Below are positions 7,063-38,177 of a DNA stretch of 64,000 nt, one piece after another. The translations under genes and the position numbers were made by a program. The notes under the pieces were generated by a model. The model was not told where the DNA came from. It worked only from the letters and a program-made list of their open reading frames with translations, and did no database searches. The stretch comes from an uncultured Roseovarius sp. (GTDB taxonomy: Bacteria; Pseudomonadota; Alphaproteobacteria; Rhodobacterales; Rhodobacteraceae): the NCBI GenBank assembly GCA_947503145.1, contig CANNCP010000006.1, positions 62,001-126,000 of the forward strand, given 5' to 3'. Every line of letters starts with the position of its first letter. Position 1 is the stretch's first letter.

Positions 7063-7188
7063 ACGTGAACCCGTCTCTTTGTCGTCCGCTCTCTCAATCC
7101 TCGTAAACTACTCTTTAACTCATTTGGGAAAAAGTGGAGGGGTGAACAATTTTCTTGAAATGTTCTCGTTTTGTCTGCATGTACTGTA

Positions 7189-7203
7189 GAACAAGTGGTG
7201 AAC
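7189..7203 (+). promoter_or_regulatory. LexA SOS box (GAAC-N7-GAAC) upstream of recA
   Basis: GAAC, AAGTGGT, GAAC is an exact match to the alphaproteobacterial LexA operator, 48 bases upstream of the recA ATG. A half-site GTTC at 7162-7165 followed by a GTCT seven bases on could be a weaker second operator. Confidence 0.85.
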
Positions 7204-8495: not shown

Positions 8496-11159
8496 ATGCC
8501 GACGTTGAATGAAATCCGCTCGACCTTTCTCAATTTCTTCGAGCGCAATGATCATGCGGTCGTCGACAGCTCGCCTCTGGTGCCGCGTAATGACCCGACG
8601 CTGATGTTCACCAACTCGGGGATGGTCCAGTTCAAGAACCTCTTTACCGGGGTGGAGCGCCGCGACTATACCCGTGCGGCCACCAGCCAGAAATGTGTTC
8701 GCGCCGGTGGCAAACACAACGATCTGGACAATGTGGGCTATACCGCGCGGCATCATACGTTCTTTGAGATGTTGGGAAATTTCAGCTTTGGGGACTATTT
8801 CAAGGAACAGGCGATTCCCTACGCCTGGGACCTGCTGACCAAGGAATTCGGCCTCGACAAGTCCAAGCTGCTGGTCACGGTCTACCATACCGATGACGAG
8901 GCGGCGGATATCTGGAAGAAATACGCGGGCCTGCCGGACGAACGCATCATCCGCATTGCGACGGACGATAATTTCTGGTCGATGGGGGCGACCGGTCCGT
9001 GCGGGCCGTGCACCGAGATATTTTATGACCACGGACCCGGGATCTGGGGTGGACCGCCGGGCAGCGCCGAGGAAGATGGCGACCGGTTCATCGAGATCTG
9101 GAACCTCGTTTTCATGCAGAACGAACGGTTCGAGGACGGCTCGCAGCGTGATCTGGACATGCAGTCGATCGATACCGGCATGGGGCTGGAGCGGATCGGC
9201 GCGCTGTTGCAAGGCAAGCATGATAATTACGACACCGACCTGATGCGCGCCCTGATCGAGGCCAGCGCGCATGTCACCAGTCAGGACCCGGACGGGCCGG
9301 GCAACGTGCATCACCGGGTGATCGCGGATCACCTGCGCTCGACCTCGTTCCTGATGGCCGATGGGGTGATGCCGTCCAACGAGGGGCGCGGATATGTGCT
9401 GCGCCGGATCATGCGGCGCGCGATGCGCCATGCGCACCTGCTGGGTGCCCAGGACCCGGTGATGTACCGGCTGGTGCCCGCGCTGGTCACGCAGATGGGT
9501 CAGGCCTATCCCGAGTTGGGGCGCGCGCAGGCGCTGATCGAAGAGACGCTTAAACAGGAAGAGACGCGTTTCAAGCAGACGCTCGACCGCGGGCTGAGCA
9601 TGCTGGACGACGCGGTTTCCGGTTTGCCCGAAGGTGCTGAACTGCCGGGCGAGACGGCATTCAAGCTCTACGATACTTATGGTTTCCCGCTCGACCTGAC
9701 ACAGGATGCGCTGCGCGAGAAGGGGTTGGGTGTTGCCATCGACGGGTTCGACGCGGCTATGGCCGAGCAGAAGGCAAAGGCCCGCGCGGCCTGGTCCGGC
9801 TCGGGTGAGGCGGCGGATGCTGGTATCTGGTTCGATATCGCAGAGACCGAAGGCGTGACCGATTTTCTGGGGTATGACACCGAAGTGGCCGAGGGGCAGA
9901 TACGCGCGCTGGTACAGGACGGTGCCCTGATCACCGAGGCCACGGTCGGGGATGAGGTGCAGATTGTCCTCAACCAGACTCCGTTCTATGCGGAATCGGG
10001 CGGACAGGTGGGCGATACTGGCACTATTCGCACCGAAAGCGCCTGCGCCGAGATCACCGACACCCGCAAAGTGGCGGGCGTGTTTATCCATTTTGGCAAG
10101 ATCACCCAGGGCACGCTGTCCAGGGGGGATGCGGTGCAGCTGGCGGTAGATCATGCCCGTCGCAGTCAAATCCGTGCCAACCATTCGGCCACACACCTGC
10201 TGCACGAGGCGTTGCGCGATACGCTTGGGCCTCATGTGGCGCAGCGCGGCAGCCTGAATGCCCACGACCGGCTGCGGTTCGATTTTAGCCACACCAAGGC
10301 GCTCTCGCTGCAGGAACTAAGGCAGGTCGAGGCCGACGTGAACGCCTATATCCGGCAGAATAACACGGTCGAGACGCGGATCATGACGCCCGACGATGCT
10401 CGCGCGCTGGGGGCGCAGGCGCTCTTTGGCGAGAAATACGGCGATGAGGTGCGTGTGGTGTCGATGGGCACGCAGTCCGGCTCTGGCAAGGGGACGGATG
10501 GTGCGACCTATTCGATCGAGCTATGTGGCGGCACCCATGTCGGGCGGACCGGTGATATCGGTGTGTTGGTCATTACCGGTGACAGCGCATCGAGTGCGGG
10601 CGTGCGCCGGATAGAAGCGCTGACCGGAGCGGATGCGTTTCGCTATCTCAGCAAACAGGATCAACGGATCGCGTCATTGGCGTTGGAATTGCGTGCGCAG
10701 CCGGACGACGTGCTGGAGCGTGTGCGCGGCCTGATGGATGAGCGCAAAGGACTGAGCAACGAGGTCGCGCAGCTACGCCGTGAATTGGCGATGGTCGGCG
10801 GGGCCGGGCAGGGTGGTGCTGTGGCGACCGAGGAGGTCGGCGGCGTGCCCTTCCTGGCGCAGGTGCTGAGCGGCGTGTCTGGCAGGGACTTGCCCGCACT
10901 GATTGACGAGCACAAGCTGCGGATCGGCACCGGTGCCGTGCTGCTGATCGCTGATACGGGCGGCAAGGCGGCCGTGGCCGCCGGTGTGACCGGGGATCTG
11001 ACGGATCGCATGTCGGCCGTGGACATGGTCAAGGCTGCCGTTGTGGAATTGGGCGGTAAGGGCGGTGGCGGCCGCCCGGACATGGCCCAGGGCGGCGGAC
11101 GCGATGCGACCAACGCCGATGCCGCGATCGAAGCCGTCAGAACACTGCTGAAAGGATAG
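8496..11159 (+). CDS. alaS: Alanyl-tRNA synthetase
   Basis: 887 residues, full length. It charges tRNA-Ala and clears mischarged Ser/Gly-tRNA-Ala. The class II catalytic domain begins [20 protein letters not shown] and includes [14 protein letters not shown] and the motif 2/3 elements. The editing domain shows the zinc-binding [12 protein letters not shown] (HxxxH, about residue 562) and [13 protein letters not shown] (about residue 678). The C-terminal DHHA1-type domain ends [13 protein letters not shown]. AlaS commonly follows recA in alphaproteobacteria. The strong recA terminator suggests a separate promoter, and DUF1330 follows after 3 bases. Confidence 0.98.
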
Positions 11160-32654: not shown

Positions 32655-37135
<4,481 letters not shown>

Positions 37136-37187
37136 GAACAAAATCTTTGGCGTGTTTTCAATTGGTTAAACCCATGAGTGCCGTTTT

Positions 37188-37212
37188 GTTCACGGATGTT
37201 CCCTAATAGTTC
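37188..37212 (+). promoter_or_regulatory. LexA operator with three GTTC half-sites
   Basis: GTTC occurs at 37188, 37198 and 37209. The last two form a perfect GTTC-N7-GTTC LexA box (37198-37212) 64 bases upstream of the peptide ATG. The first lies 6 bases from the second and may extend binding. Confidence 0.8.
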
Positions 37213-37275
37213 TTTACATGATGTGTCAAAAGTGAGAACAAAGAGGCAACACGAAGAATTGGAAAGGAAAGCCCG

Positions 37276-37398
37276 ATGTTCCACCAGATCAAAGCCGCCG
37301 TCGCCCGGTCGAACGACACCCTCATGGGGGATGCGATCGGAGGGGCCGCACTGATGGTCATGCTGGTTGGTGGCCTCTATCTGCCAAGCCTTGTCTAA
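37276..37398 (+). CDS. SOS-controlled 40-residue membrane peptide
   Basis: An ATG at 37276, preceded by GGAAAGGAAAG, opens 40 codons ending in TAA at 37398. The N-terminal 20 residues are basic and polar (MFHQIKAAVARSNDTLMGD). The C-terminal half (IGGAALMVMLVGGLYLPSLV) is one hydrophobic segment. The gene lies behind a perfect LexA box and ends before a strong terminator, so it is an SOS unit of its own. Caulobacter SidA is a 29-residue LexA-controlled inner-membrane peptide that blocks division. Size, topology and control match, but no sequence homology is claimed. It could also be a toxin-like or stress peptide. Confidence 0.7.
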   Translation: MFHQIKAAVARSNDTLMGDAIGGAALMVMLVGGLYLPSLV

Positions 37399-37721
37399 GT
37401 CTTTTGCGTTTCTGCCTGCGATCCAGATCCGTGCCTCTTGCGTGCCTGCATCTCCTGTCCCACTCCTGATGCGACGTAACTGATACTGCCTGTTCCGACG
37501 TCTTTCCCGGGTTTGCCTCATTTCCCCCGGGTGGCACGACAGGGTTCCACGGGGATCGCACCCCACTGGCCGCCGCCATCCGTCCCCGGATGTGCGGCGG
37601 TTTTTTTGTTCGAATGGATCAGCGATTACGGCCGGGCGATGTGCTCAGACCGGGACGAGAAACACCAGGCAGGCGATCAGGAAAGACCGGCTGGCGATGG
37701 CGGCATCGGCATGGGCTTTGA
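37399..37721. other. 323-base gap holding a terminator
   Basis: Apart from the terminator at 37570-37608 no gene is recognised between the membrane-peptide gene and the convergent NifU-like gene. Confidence 0.5.
37570..37608 (+). terminator. Rho-independent terminator downstream of the membrane-peptide gene
   Basis: Stem CCGCCGC...ATCCG / CGGAT...GCGGCGG followed by seven T residues. The 170-base stretch between the peptide stop and this hairpin has no protein-like frame. Confidence 0.9.
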
Positions 37722-38177
37722 TCAGGCGCAGGAACTGGTCGAGCGGGCCGCGTCCAGAGCCTCTACTGCTGCCTCCAACGTCAGAAGGATCGAGGCATGT
37801 CGATTCTTGTAATCCTGCGCCGGCCTGAGCACTTCGAGCCCGTCAAAAGGCGCAGGCGGGGTCGGCCCGTCCGTCTTCAGCATGGCCTTGAGCGCGTCGC
37901 GTGCCGCGATGACCTCGTCGCGGGTGCAGCCGACGATGTTGGCCCCCACGACACTGGCGGCAGCCTGACCCAATGCACAGGCCTTCACATCCTGACCAAA
38001 ATTGCTGATGCGGCCGTTTTCAACCGTCAGATCGACAGTCACGGTCGATCCGCAGAGCGGTGCGCGGCGTTTCACGGTCGCGTCCGGCGTTGCCAGCCTG
38101 TCGAGTCGCGGAATGTCCGCAGCCAGTGCCAGAATACGGGCCGAGTAGAGCTTGATCATGTCGCTGTTGCCGCTCAT
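37722..38177 (-). CDS. NifU/IscU-like iron-sulfur cluster scaffold protein
   Basis: 151 residues. The IscU/NifU N-terminal fold is visible: MIKLYSARILALAADIPRL, APLCGSTVTVDLTVENGRI (first Cys), VKACALGQAAASV (second Cys) and ALKAMLKTDGP. Members assemble or carry Fe-S clusters. The third classical Cys near the C-terminus is not clearly placed (a Cys occurs in NIVGCTRDE). This variant is widespread in Rhodobacterales near hisI. The start has GGAAAAG. It is divergent from hisI. Confidence 0.8.
   Translation of the reverse strand: MSGNSDMIKLYSARILALAADIPRLDRLATPDATVKRRAPLCGSTVTVDLTVENGRISNFGQDVKACALGQAAASVVGANIVGCTRDEVIAARDALKAMLKTDGPTPPAPFDGLEVLRPAQDYKNRHASILLTLEAAVEALDAARSTSSCA

Follow-up and report, generated by a model that had tools for sequence, protein, structure and literature searches.

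A family-conserved, probably LexA-controlled membrane peptide and structured RNA behind recG in Rhodobacteraceae, with a plausible SidA-like role in division

Behind recG in the DNA analysed here, a 64,000-nucleotide stretch of an uncultured Roseovarius sp. genome (contig CANNCP010000006.1; hereafter the window), lies what is very probably a LexA-controlled unit conserved across the family Rhodobacteraceae and made up of a 40-residue predicted membrane peptide and a structured RNA (Table 1). LexA control, together with selective constraint on a helix that is short, uncharged and of fixed length, argues for an effector of the SOS (DNA damage) response that acts by helix contact, and since SidA, DidA and YneA, which have this form, act on the divisome, we prefer a reading in which the peptide arrests division. 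We put the probability of this whole reading, an SOS unit including peptide-driven division arrest, at about 0.5; a SidA-like inhibitor role is plausible by analogy.

An initial annotation of the window had pointed to GTTC at 37188, 37198 and 37209, with the last two forming a LexA box (37198-37212), and all of these are exact in the sequence. As a pattern the box alone is near chance, with three GTTC-N7-GTTC sites in the window against 1.68 expected, which is not significant by itself, and 98 sites genome-wide against 87 for the reversed pattern. The case thus rests on conservation. The box lies at most 120 nucleotides (nt) from the peptide start in 127 of 129 distinct 120-nt upstream regions, counted as distinct because the named and unnamed locus sets partly overlap; for the same set the reversed pattern is found in none, and a single sequence has a box within 120 nt downstream of the stop codon. 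The triple repeat GTTC-N6-GTTC-N7-GTTC is present in 115 of the 129, indicating that the GTTC at 37188 is conserved as well. Set by set, the box accompanies 56/56 loci of the first set (from 54 genomes, two of the loci being repeats) and 78/80 named loci, the other two carrying GTTC-N6-GTTC-N6-GTTC, and across both sets it lies 71 to 107 nt upstream of the matched start. Within the genus, 27 of 30 genomes have GTTCN7GTTCTTKAC at this locus, and the motif has just three other matches (genomes G013, G024 and G029). Could a random LexA-like box simply precede a spurious frame? The near-chance frequency of the pattern in this genome is what such a coincidence would predict, but box, frame, core motif and RNA are all conserved in the family and the box was found behind recG in none of 28 inspected loci of other families, so that a chance origin is extremely improbable.

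When 126 distinct rows are aligned at the operator, the family consensus reads GTTCRCAAAT-GTTC-TNAWAAA-GTTC-TTTACA, followed by 13 variable bases and then ATGAGAACAAA. An alphaproteobacterial-type LexA operator is present at the predicted promoter, as would be expected of a regulon member. In the same rows the TTTAC columns are conserved at 0.92-1.0 and the final A at 0.67; a sigma-70 consensus scan of the region gave no match, and the -35 assignment rests on this conservation. TTTACA directly adjoins the last GTTC and resembles a -35 element, so bound LexA would block RNA polymerase. The same type of box stands at 7189-7203 before recA in the window (RecA by TIGR02012), and lexA in this genome has GAACATGCGTAGAAC upstream of its start.

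A second element, the nucleotide block RTGAGAACAAAGNGGCAACA (37232-37255), is conserved in most loci between the -35 and the start codon, its TGAGAACAAA columns reaching 0.97-1.0, and could be a candidate -10, an inverted LexA half-site or an RNA element. We considered an extension of the peptide from the conserved ATG/GTG-AGAACAAA within it, which reads MRTK..., and rejected it, since the frame is spread over all three and stops are frequent: the ATG/GTG falls in the peptide frame in 47 of 124 loci and in the other two frames in 41 and 36. Being in frame no more than expected, the block appears to be a nucleotide element rather than a leader start, and the leader between it and the peptide start varies in length among loci.

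The 40-codon frame proposed in the initial annotation reads MFHQIKAAVARSNDTLMGDAIGGAALMVMLVGGLYLPSLV, with GGAAAGGA upstream. Its C-terminal half forms one hydrophobic segment (19-residue Kyte-Doolittle maximum 1.79), and AlphaFold2 predicts a single helix over residues 2-39 (mean predicted local distance difference test score, pLDDT, 88.9; predicted template modelling score, pTM, 0.46), in agreement with the single membrane segment that had been suggested. In 136 loci the peptide begins with ATG, after the start had been shifted a few codons upstream where the match missed it, and is 37-43 residues long; a further 51 divergent peptides span 31-49 residues. Over 38 disjoint close pairs the ratio of replacement to silent substitution rates (dN/dS) is about 0.095, from 88.5 replacement and 295.5 silent changes, whereas the shifted frames of the same pairs give 1.9 and 4.5; by these ratios the peptide is under strong purifying selection. 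The motif D-x2-G-x14-P, which in the window's peptide comprises D19, G22 and P37, is kept in 127/127 distinct coding sequences, and its spacing in 44 of the 51 divergent peptides, the 31-residue forms (for example MTREFFCDLIGIAALTTTTMVVLYLPAILQA) among them. In all 109 distinct main-set peptides the stretch beyond the motif D is free of K, R, D and E, and in 95 of them the residues ahead of the D carry a net positive charge. With a charge-free helix after the D and a mostly positive N-terminal part, an N-in/C-out orientation is predicted. The 31-residue form itself was seen at loci L179, L180, L182-L185, L192, L268, L280, L282, L295 and L296, and these have a shorter 3' region ahead of the terminator where inspected.

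How far the unit extends among genomes was followed in several ways. Searched singly, the peptide matches at E<1e-5 in 34 of 36 genomes of the genus, the window's own counted, and has no credible match in 24 genomes outside it. A 23-row peptide profile has a match in 349 of the 390 genomes sampled from the order, covering 134 of 139 genera (E<=0.01); those listed fall within a single GTDB family. The DNA behind recG was read in 59 loci, comprising all 41 profile misses, 17 weak matches and the fragmentary G002, whose contig ends within the unit. GTTC-N6-GTTC or GTTC-N7-GTTC lies within 330 nt in 54 of these (51 with N7, 3 with N6 only), and 51 also have a short hydrophobic frame by a script rule, L285 being added by eye. 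In six genomes the operator motif was sought elsewhere, and in three of them it was found away from recG, at distances of about 960 nt, 26 kb and 240 kb, each time with the peptide behind it (L294, L295, L296). The unit was thereby recovered in 38 of the 41 profile misses, which brings the total to 387 of 390 genomes. The initial annotation had made joint conservation of peptide and operator its first check, and the genome comparison shows the two to be conserved together in the family and, in these three genomes, to have moved together. The outcome that the annotation had named as refuting, an unconserved frame beside an operator retained for some other gene, was thus not observed. In G018 neither recG nor the operator was matched.

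Outside the family the picture changes. A recG match was obtained in 107 genomes from the class's other families, and in the 28 loci inspected among these the box is never behind recG; three hydrophobic frames found behind recG there were rejected as they have no box. Over 385 genomes of the class the profile gave five matches in the same family and two inside long frames of 237 and 770 residues, taken as chance, with none credible outside the family.

The initial annotation had overlooked what follows the peptide, a conserved structured RNA of about 160 nt that starts right after the stop codon. The regular distance to the first T-run, which lies 150-199 nt from the stop in 99 of 134 loci, pointed to it. 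Of 130 loci, 126 have a CTGCCT-type motif, which in 99 lies at most 15 nt from the stop (four further loci have no T-run). Common to the folds are a closing stem and inner hairpins, whose loops include CUGUCCC, CUGCC and UGCCUC. The closing arms of 70 dereplicated loci pair, on average, at -29.8 kcal/mol with their own partner and at -22.3 kcal/mol with that of another locus; none of 20,000 permutations was as good, in a permutation that ignores relatedness, and the own partner ranks best in 14 of the 70 loci and 65th at worst. For this comparison 24 of the 134 loci, in which the motif or the terminator is missing, were set aside. Changes on both sides occur at 13 of 36 pairs among 13 sequences, against a shuffle mean of 7.3 and with none of 500 shuffles as high, in a hand-picked subset whose structure was voted from the folds of those same sequences; one of five pair measures, further pair types, lies within the shuffles (81/500 as high). 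A first RNA alignment of 78 representatives let RNAalifold recover the terminator only, and the structure emerged with 20 and then 13 chosen sequences. A covariance model (R1) built from these 13, with the window and all searched sources left out, matches the window (42.6 bits, E 2.7e-7). Across 89 sources it has 66 matches, spread over 65 of the sources, and 49 of the matches reach E<=0.01. Judged by position, they sit at the 3' end of the peptide, that in L183 overlapping it, except for one at window 9559-9600 (17.7 bits, E 0.09) that we took as chance. Up to E 1, R1 has no match in the other 24 of the 89 sources; on a class sample of 96 genomes, with stricter filters, it matches only the two that belong to the same family. 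Rfam gave 0 matches up to E 1 over window 36900-37800.

Behind the RNA lies the terminator that the initial annotation had called, a hairpin followed by T7, which a consensus scanner did not list on the + strand. Since the RNA starts directly behind the stop codon and no separate promoter was identified, co-transcription with the peptide is the simplest reading of the sequence. Base pairing between GGCAA of the 5' block and a UUGCC loop of the 3' RNA suits the window and, by eye, not other loci, and was dropped. Many of the Leisingera-like loci (range L047, L050, L080-L091 and L137, the alteration being reported for many and not for each) have a 5' motif like CCTGATTGCATCTGC rather than TTTCTGCCTGCG; R1 still matches L080.

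Perhaps the unit mainly serves to make the structured RNA, as an SOS-induced small RNA that forms the 3' part of a coding transcript or is processed from it and that acts in trans through its pyrimidine-rich loops, with the peptide second. The better pairing of own than of mismatched arms in 70 loci and the both-side pair changes above all 500 shuffles would fit this, as would the three relocated units, which all keep CTGCC-type motifs and a T-run terminator. Small RNAs from the 3' untranslated region (UTR) of small hypothetical genes are also known in Rhodobacter sphaeroides, where UdsC/RSP_7527 is the nearest RNA parallel, although it differs in its 67 nt and in a promoter described as RpoHII-dependent (PMC9779115, PMC8625941; these and the other papers cited are drawn on through excerpts). 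UdsC is an unconfirmed candidate for the same RNA, compared by description only; by term search recG is absent from the main texts of both papers, and LexA and SOS are absent from that of PMC9779115. Against a primary role for the RNA, the peptide itself is strongly selected, trans action on an RNA target is a prediction, and the RNA is shorter in some lineages, with the 5' motif unrecognised in 22 of 134 loci and the R1 misses given above. We therefore regard it as doubtful. A combined scheme, in which one LexA-controlled transcript yields both a division-arresting peptide and a trans-acting structured small RNA as a family-wide dual function, is tentative, though somewhat less doubtful.

Returning to division arrest by the peptide as the preferred reading, the comparison with known inhibitors is one of form. 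SidA of Caulobacter crescentus is SOS-induced, has 29 residues, resides in the inner membrane and acts on FtsW, and the targets of SidA and DidA taken together are FtsW, FtsI and FtsN (PMC4211646). The peptide here is likewise very short, predicted to be single-pass and preceded by a LexA box, its membrane location being predicted, so that in form the SidA likeness drawn in the initial annotation stands. Both are very short peptides of inner-membrane type behind SOS control, predicted in the present case, and they are likened by form, any homology being conjectural. In Caulobacter sidA presumably lies near CC1927, in a neighbourhood that seems unlike the recG locus here. The recG of that species is CC1437 (PMC1839093). 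Unlike the unit in the window, SidA has no RNA part mentioned in the excerpted description of PMC4211646. DidA of C. crescentus is likewise a small, single-pass, damage-induced division inhibitor, but has 71 residues, is SOS-independent and is activated by DriD (PMC4211646). YneA, SosA and ChiZ, from other phyla, are also damage-induced membrane inhibitors of division, and YneA binds FtsW; YneA and ChiZ have a LysM domain and SosA an extended helix beyond the membrane, whereas the peptide here has almost nothing there, and structure predictions by those authors, of less than high confidence, would extend FtsW binding to SosA, ChiZ and SidA (PMC13396833).

The following sequence of events would fit these comparisons. 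Upon DNA damage RecA would trigger self-cleavage of LexA, as in established SOS biology, and loss of LexA would free the -35 beside the operator, allowing a short messenger RNA (mRNA) to be made. The peptide would insert N-in/C-out in the inner membrane, where its D-x2-G-x14-P helix could dock on a membrane partner, our best guess being the late divisome (FtsW/FtsI/FtsN), and septation might be halted until repair is complete. The 3' structured RNA would either stabilise the mRNA or be released as a small RNA.

It is conceivable that the helix instead serves another inner-membrane partner, such as a sensor kinase, a transporter or a protease. Fixed helix length and small residues that would suit helix packing are compatible with this, and in Rhodobacter capsulatus LexA has been tied to CckA and to gene transfer agent control (PMC9638019); positive evidence for any given partner is absent, and we consider such a role unlikely. 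A further scenario is a type I toxin-like peptide that depolarises the membrane and slows growth under RNA-level restraint. TisB and DinQ of Escherichia coli are likewise SOS-induced small hydrophobic membrane peptides (PMC3567139), sharing with the peptide here a small size, control by LexA and just one hydrophobic helix, and a conserved RNA belongs to the same unit. TisB and DinQ differ in being controlled by antisense RNA, and DinQ depolarises the membrane (PMC3567139), whereas here the conserved RNA is downstream on the sense strand, the leader between conserved block and start varies in length, the helix has no charged residue and the peptide is near-universal in the family and kept beside recG. 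These features make a toxin distinctly unlikely.

Several points weigh against division arrest as the function of the unit. Expression, LexA binding and a division phenotype are all predictions here, and the conserved RNA suggests that the peptide is possibly not the sole product. Among known families and solved structures the peptide has no meaningful match, and hence no link to a known division inhibitor; over 25 members Pfam gave one stray match only (EccD, E 0.0081) and NCBIfam likewise one (E 0.24), both taken as chance. Small SOS membrane peptides can be depolarising toxins, as the E. coli examples illustrate (PMC3567139). The exact core motif is missing from 7 of the 51 divergent peptides, and the 31-residue forms, mostly of genus g31, consist of the membrane core only, the N-terminal half being gone, so that contact through that half would not be universal. 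The 349 profile matches were inspected in part, and ten genomes have a second, uninspected profile match. Three of the 390 genomes appear to be without the peptide (loci L274, L281, L293): G350 and G285 have no such unit behind recG and the exact operator motif nowhere else, and G325 has the box with no recognisable frame. At L293, GTTC-N7-GTTC and TTTAC are retained behind recG, with no recognisable frame there.

The literature searched by title and abstract yielded no SOS division inhibitor for Rhodobacteraceae, and in titles and abstract openings the unit is not described, although it may be listed in supplements or in work on Rhodobacter capsulatus LexA. A Dinoroseobacter shibae LexA study lists predicted sites, with no recG in its main text, supplements aside (PMC6473078), and the excerpts of Epibacterium mobile proteogenomics (PMC6308992), a Paracoccus small-RNA paper (PMC5107571), PMC12700426 and PMC13384398 contain nothing on the locus. 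The two products, being below routine annotation size, would be easily overlooked. Rhodobacteraceae are a large and ecologically important group, and if division arrest is indeed the function, the theme of SidA, YneA and SosA, small membrane peptides acting on the divisome, would gain a new lineage, and a structured RNA would join an SOS effector, the compared inhibitors not being described with one in the excerpts cited. Under the dual-function scheme this would be a main SOS checkpoint of Rhodobacteraceae, kept in nearly all genomes. With peptide, operator and RNA all defined, the question is directly testable in laboratory strains; Tritonibacter mobilis NBRC101030 (L102), Pseudosulfitobacter pseudonitzschiae DSM 26824 (L134) and Phaeovulum veldkampii DSM 11550 (L140) are among those with the unit.

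Table 1. Features of the unit and its conserved neighbour in the window
Feature	Position	Strand	Description and basis
LexA operator	37188..37212	+	GTTC-N6-GTTC-N7-GTTC, with the GTTC-N7-GTTC box at 37198-37212; exact sequence and family conservation
-35-like element TTTACA	37213..37218	+	TTGAC-like in some loci; abuts the operator; putative promoter role
Conserved block GTGAGAACAAA	37232..37242	+	Family form RTGAGAACAAA; possible -10 or transcript start; contains an inverted GTTC half-site
40-residue predicted single-pass membrane peptide	37276..37398 (stop included)	+	Frame, profile, selection, structure prediction
Conserved structured RNA	37408..37566	+	5' TTTCTGCCTGCG, closing stem, inner hairpins with pyrimidine-rich loops; covariance model R1
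Intrinsic terminator	37570..37607	+	GC-rich hairpin and T7; sequence and fold
recG	35009..37135	+	NF008164, 1103 bits, E 0; conserved neighbour outside the unit

The placement after recG, also part of the initial annotation, holds in 136/136 loci (56/56 and 80/80), and in the window ligA precedes recG. Downstream, a SufU-like gene at 37722-38177 on the minus strand (43.5 bits, below the curated cut-off of 92.5) is convergent, and hisI starts about 0.85 kb beyond the peptide, past the terminator; given that the next sizeable gene is convergent and hisI lies past the terminator, no other gene of the window is placed to use the operator. At the recA promoter (7120-7203), several GTTC/GAAC half-sites are present besides the GAAC-N7-GAAC box.
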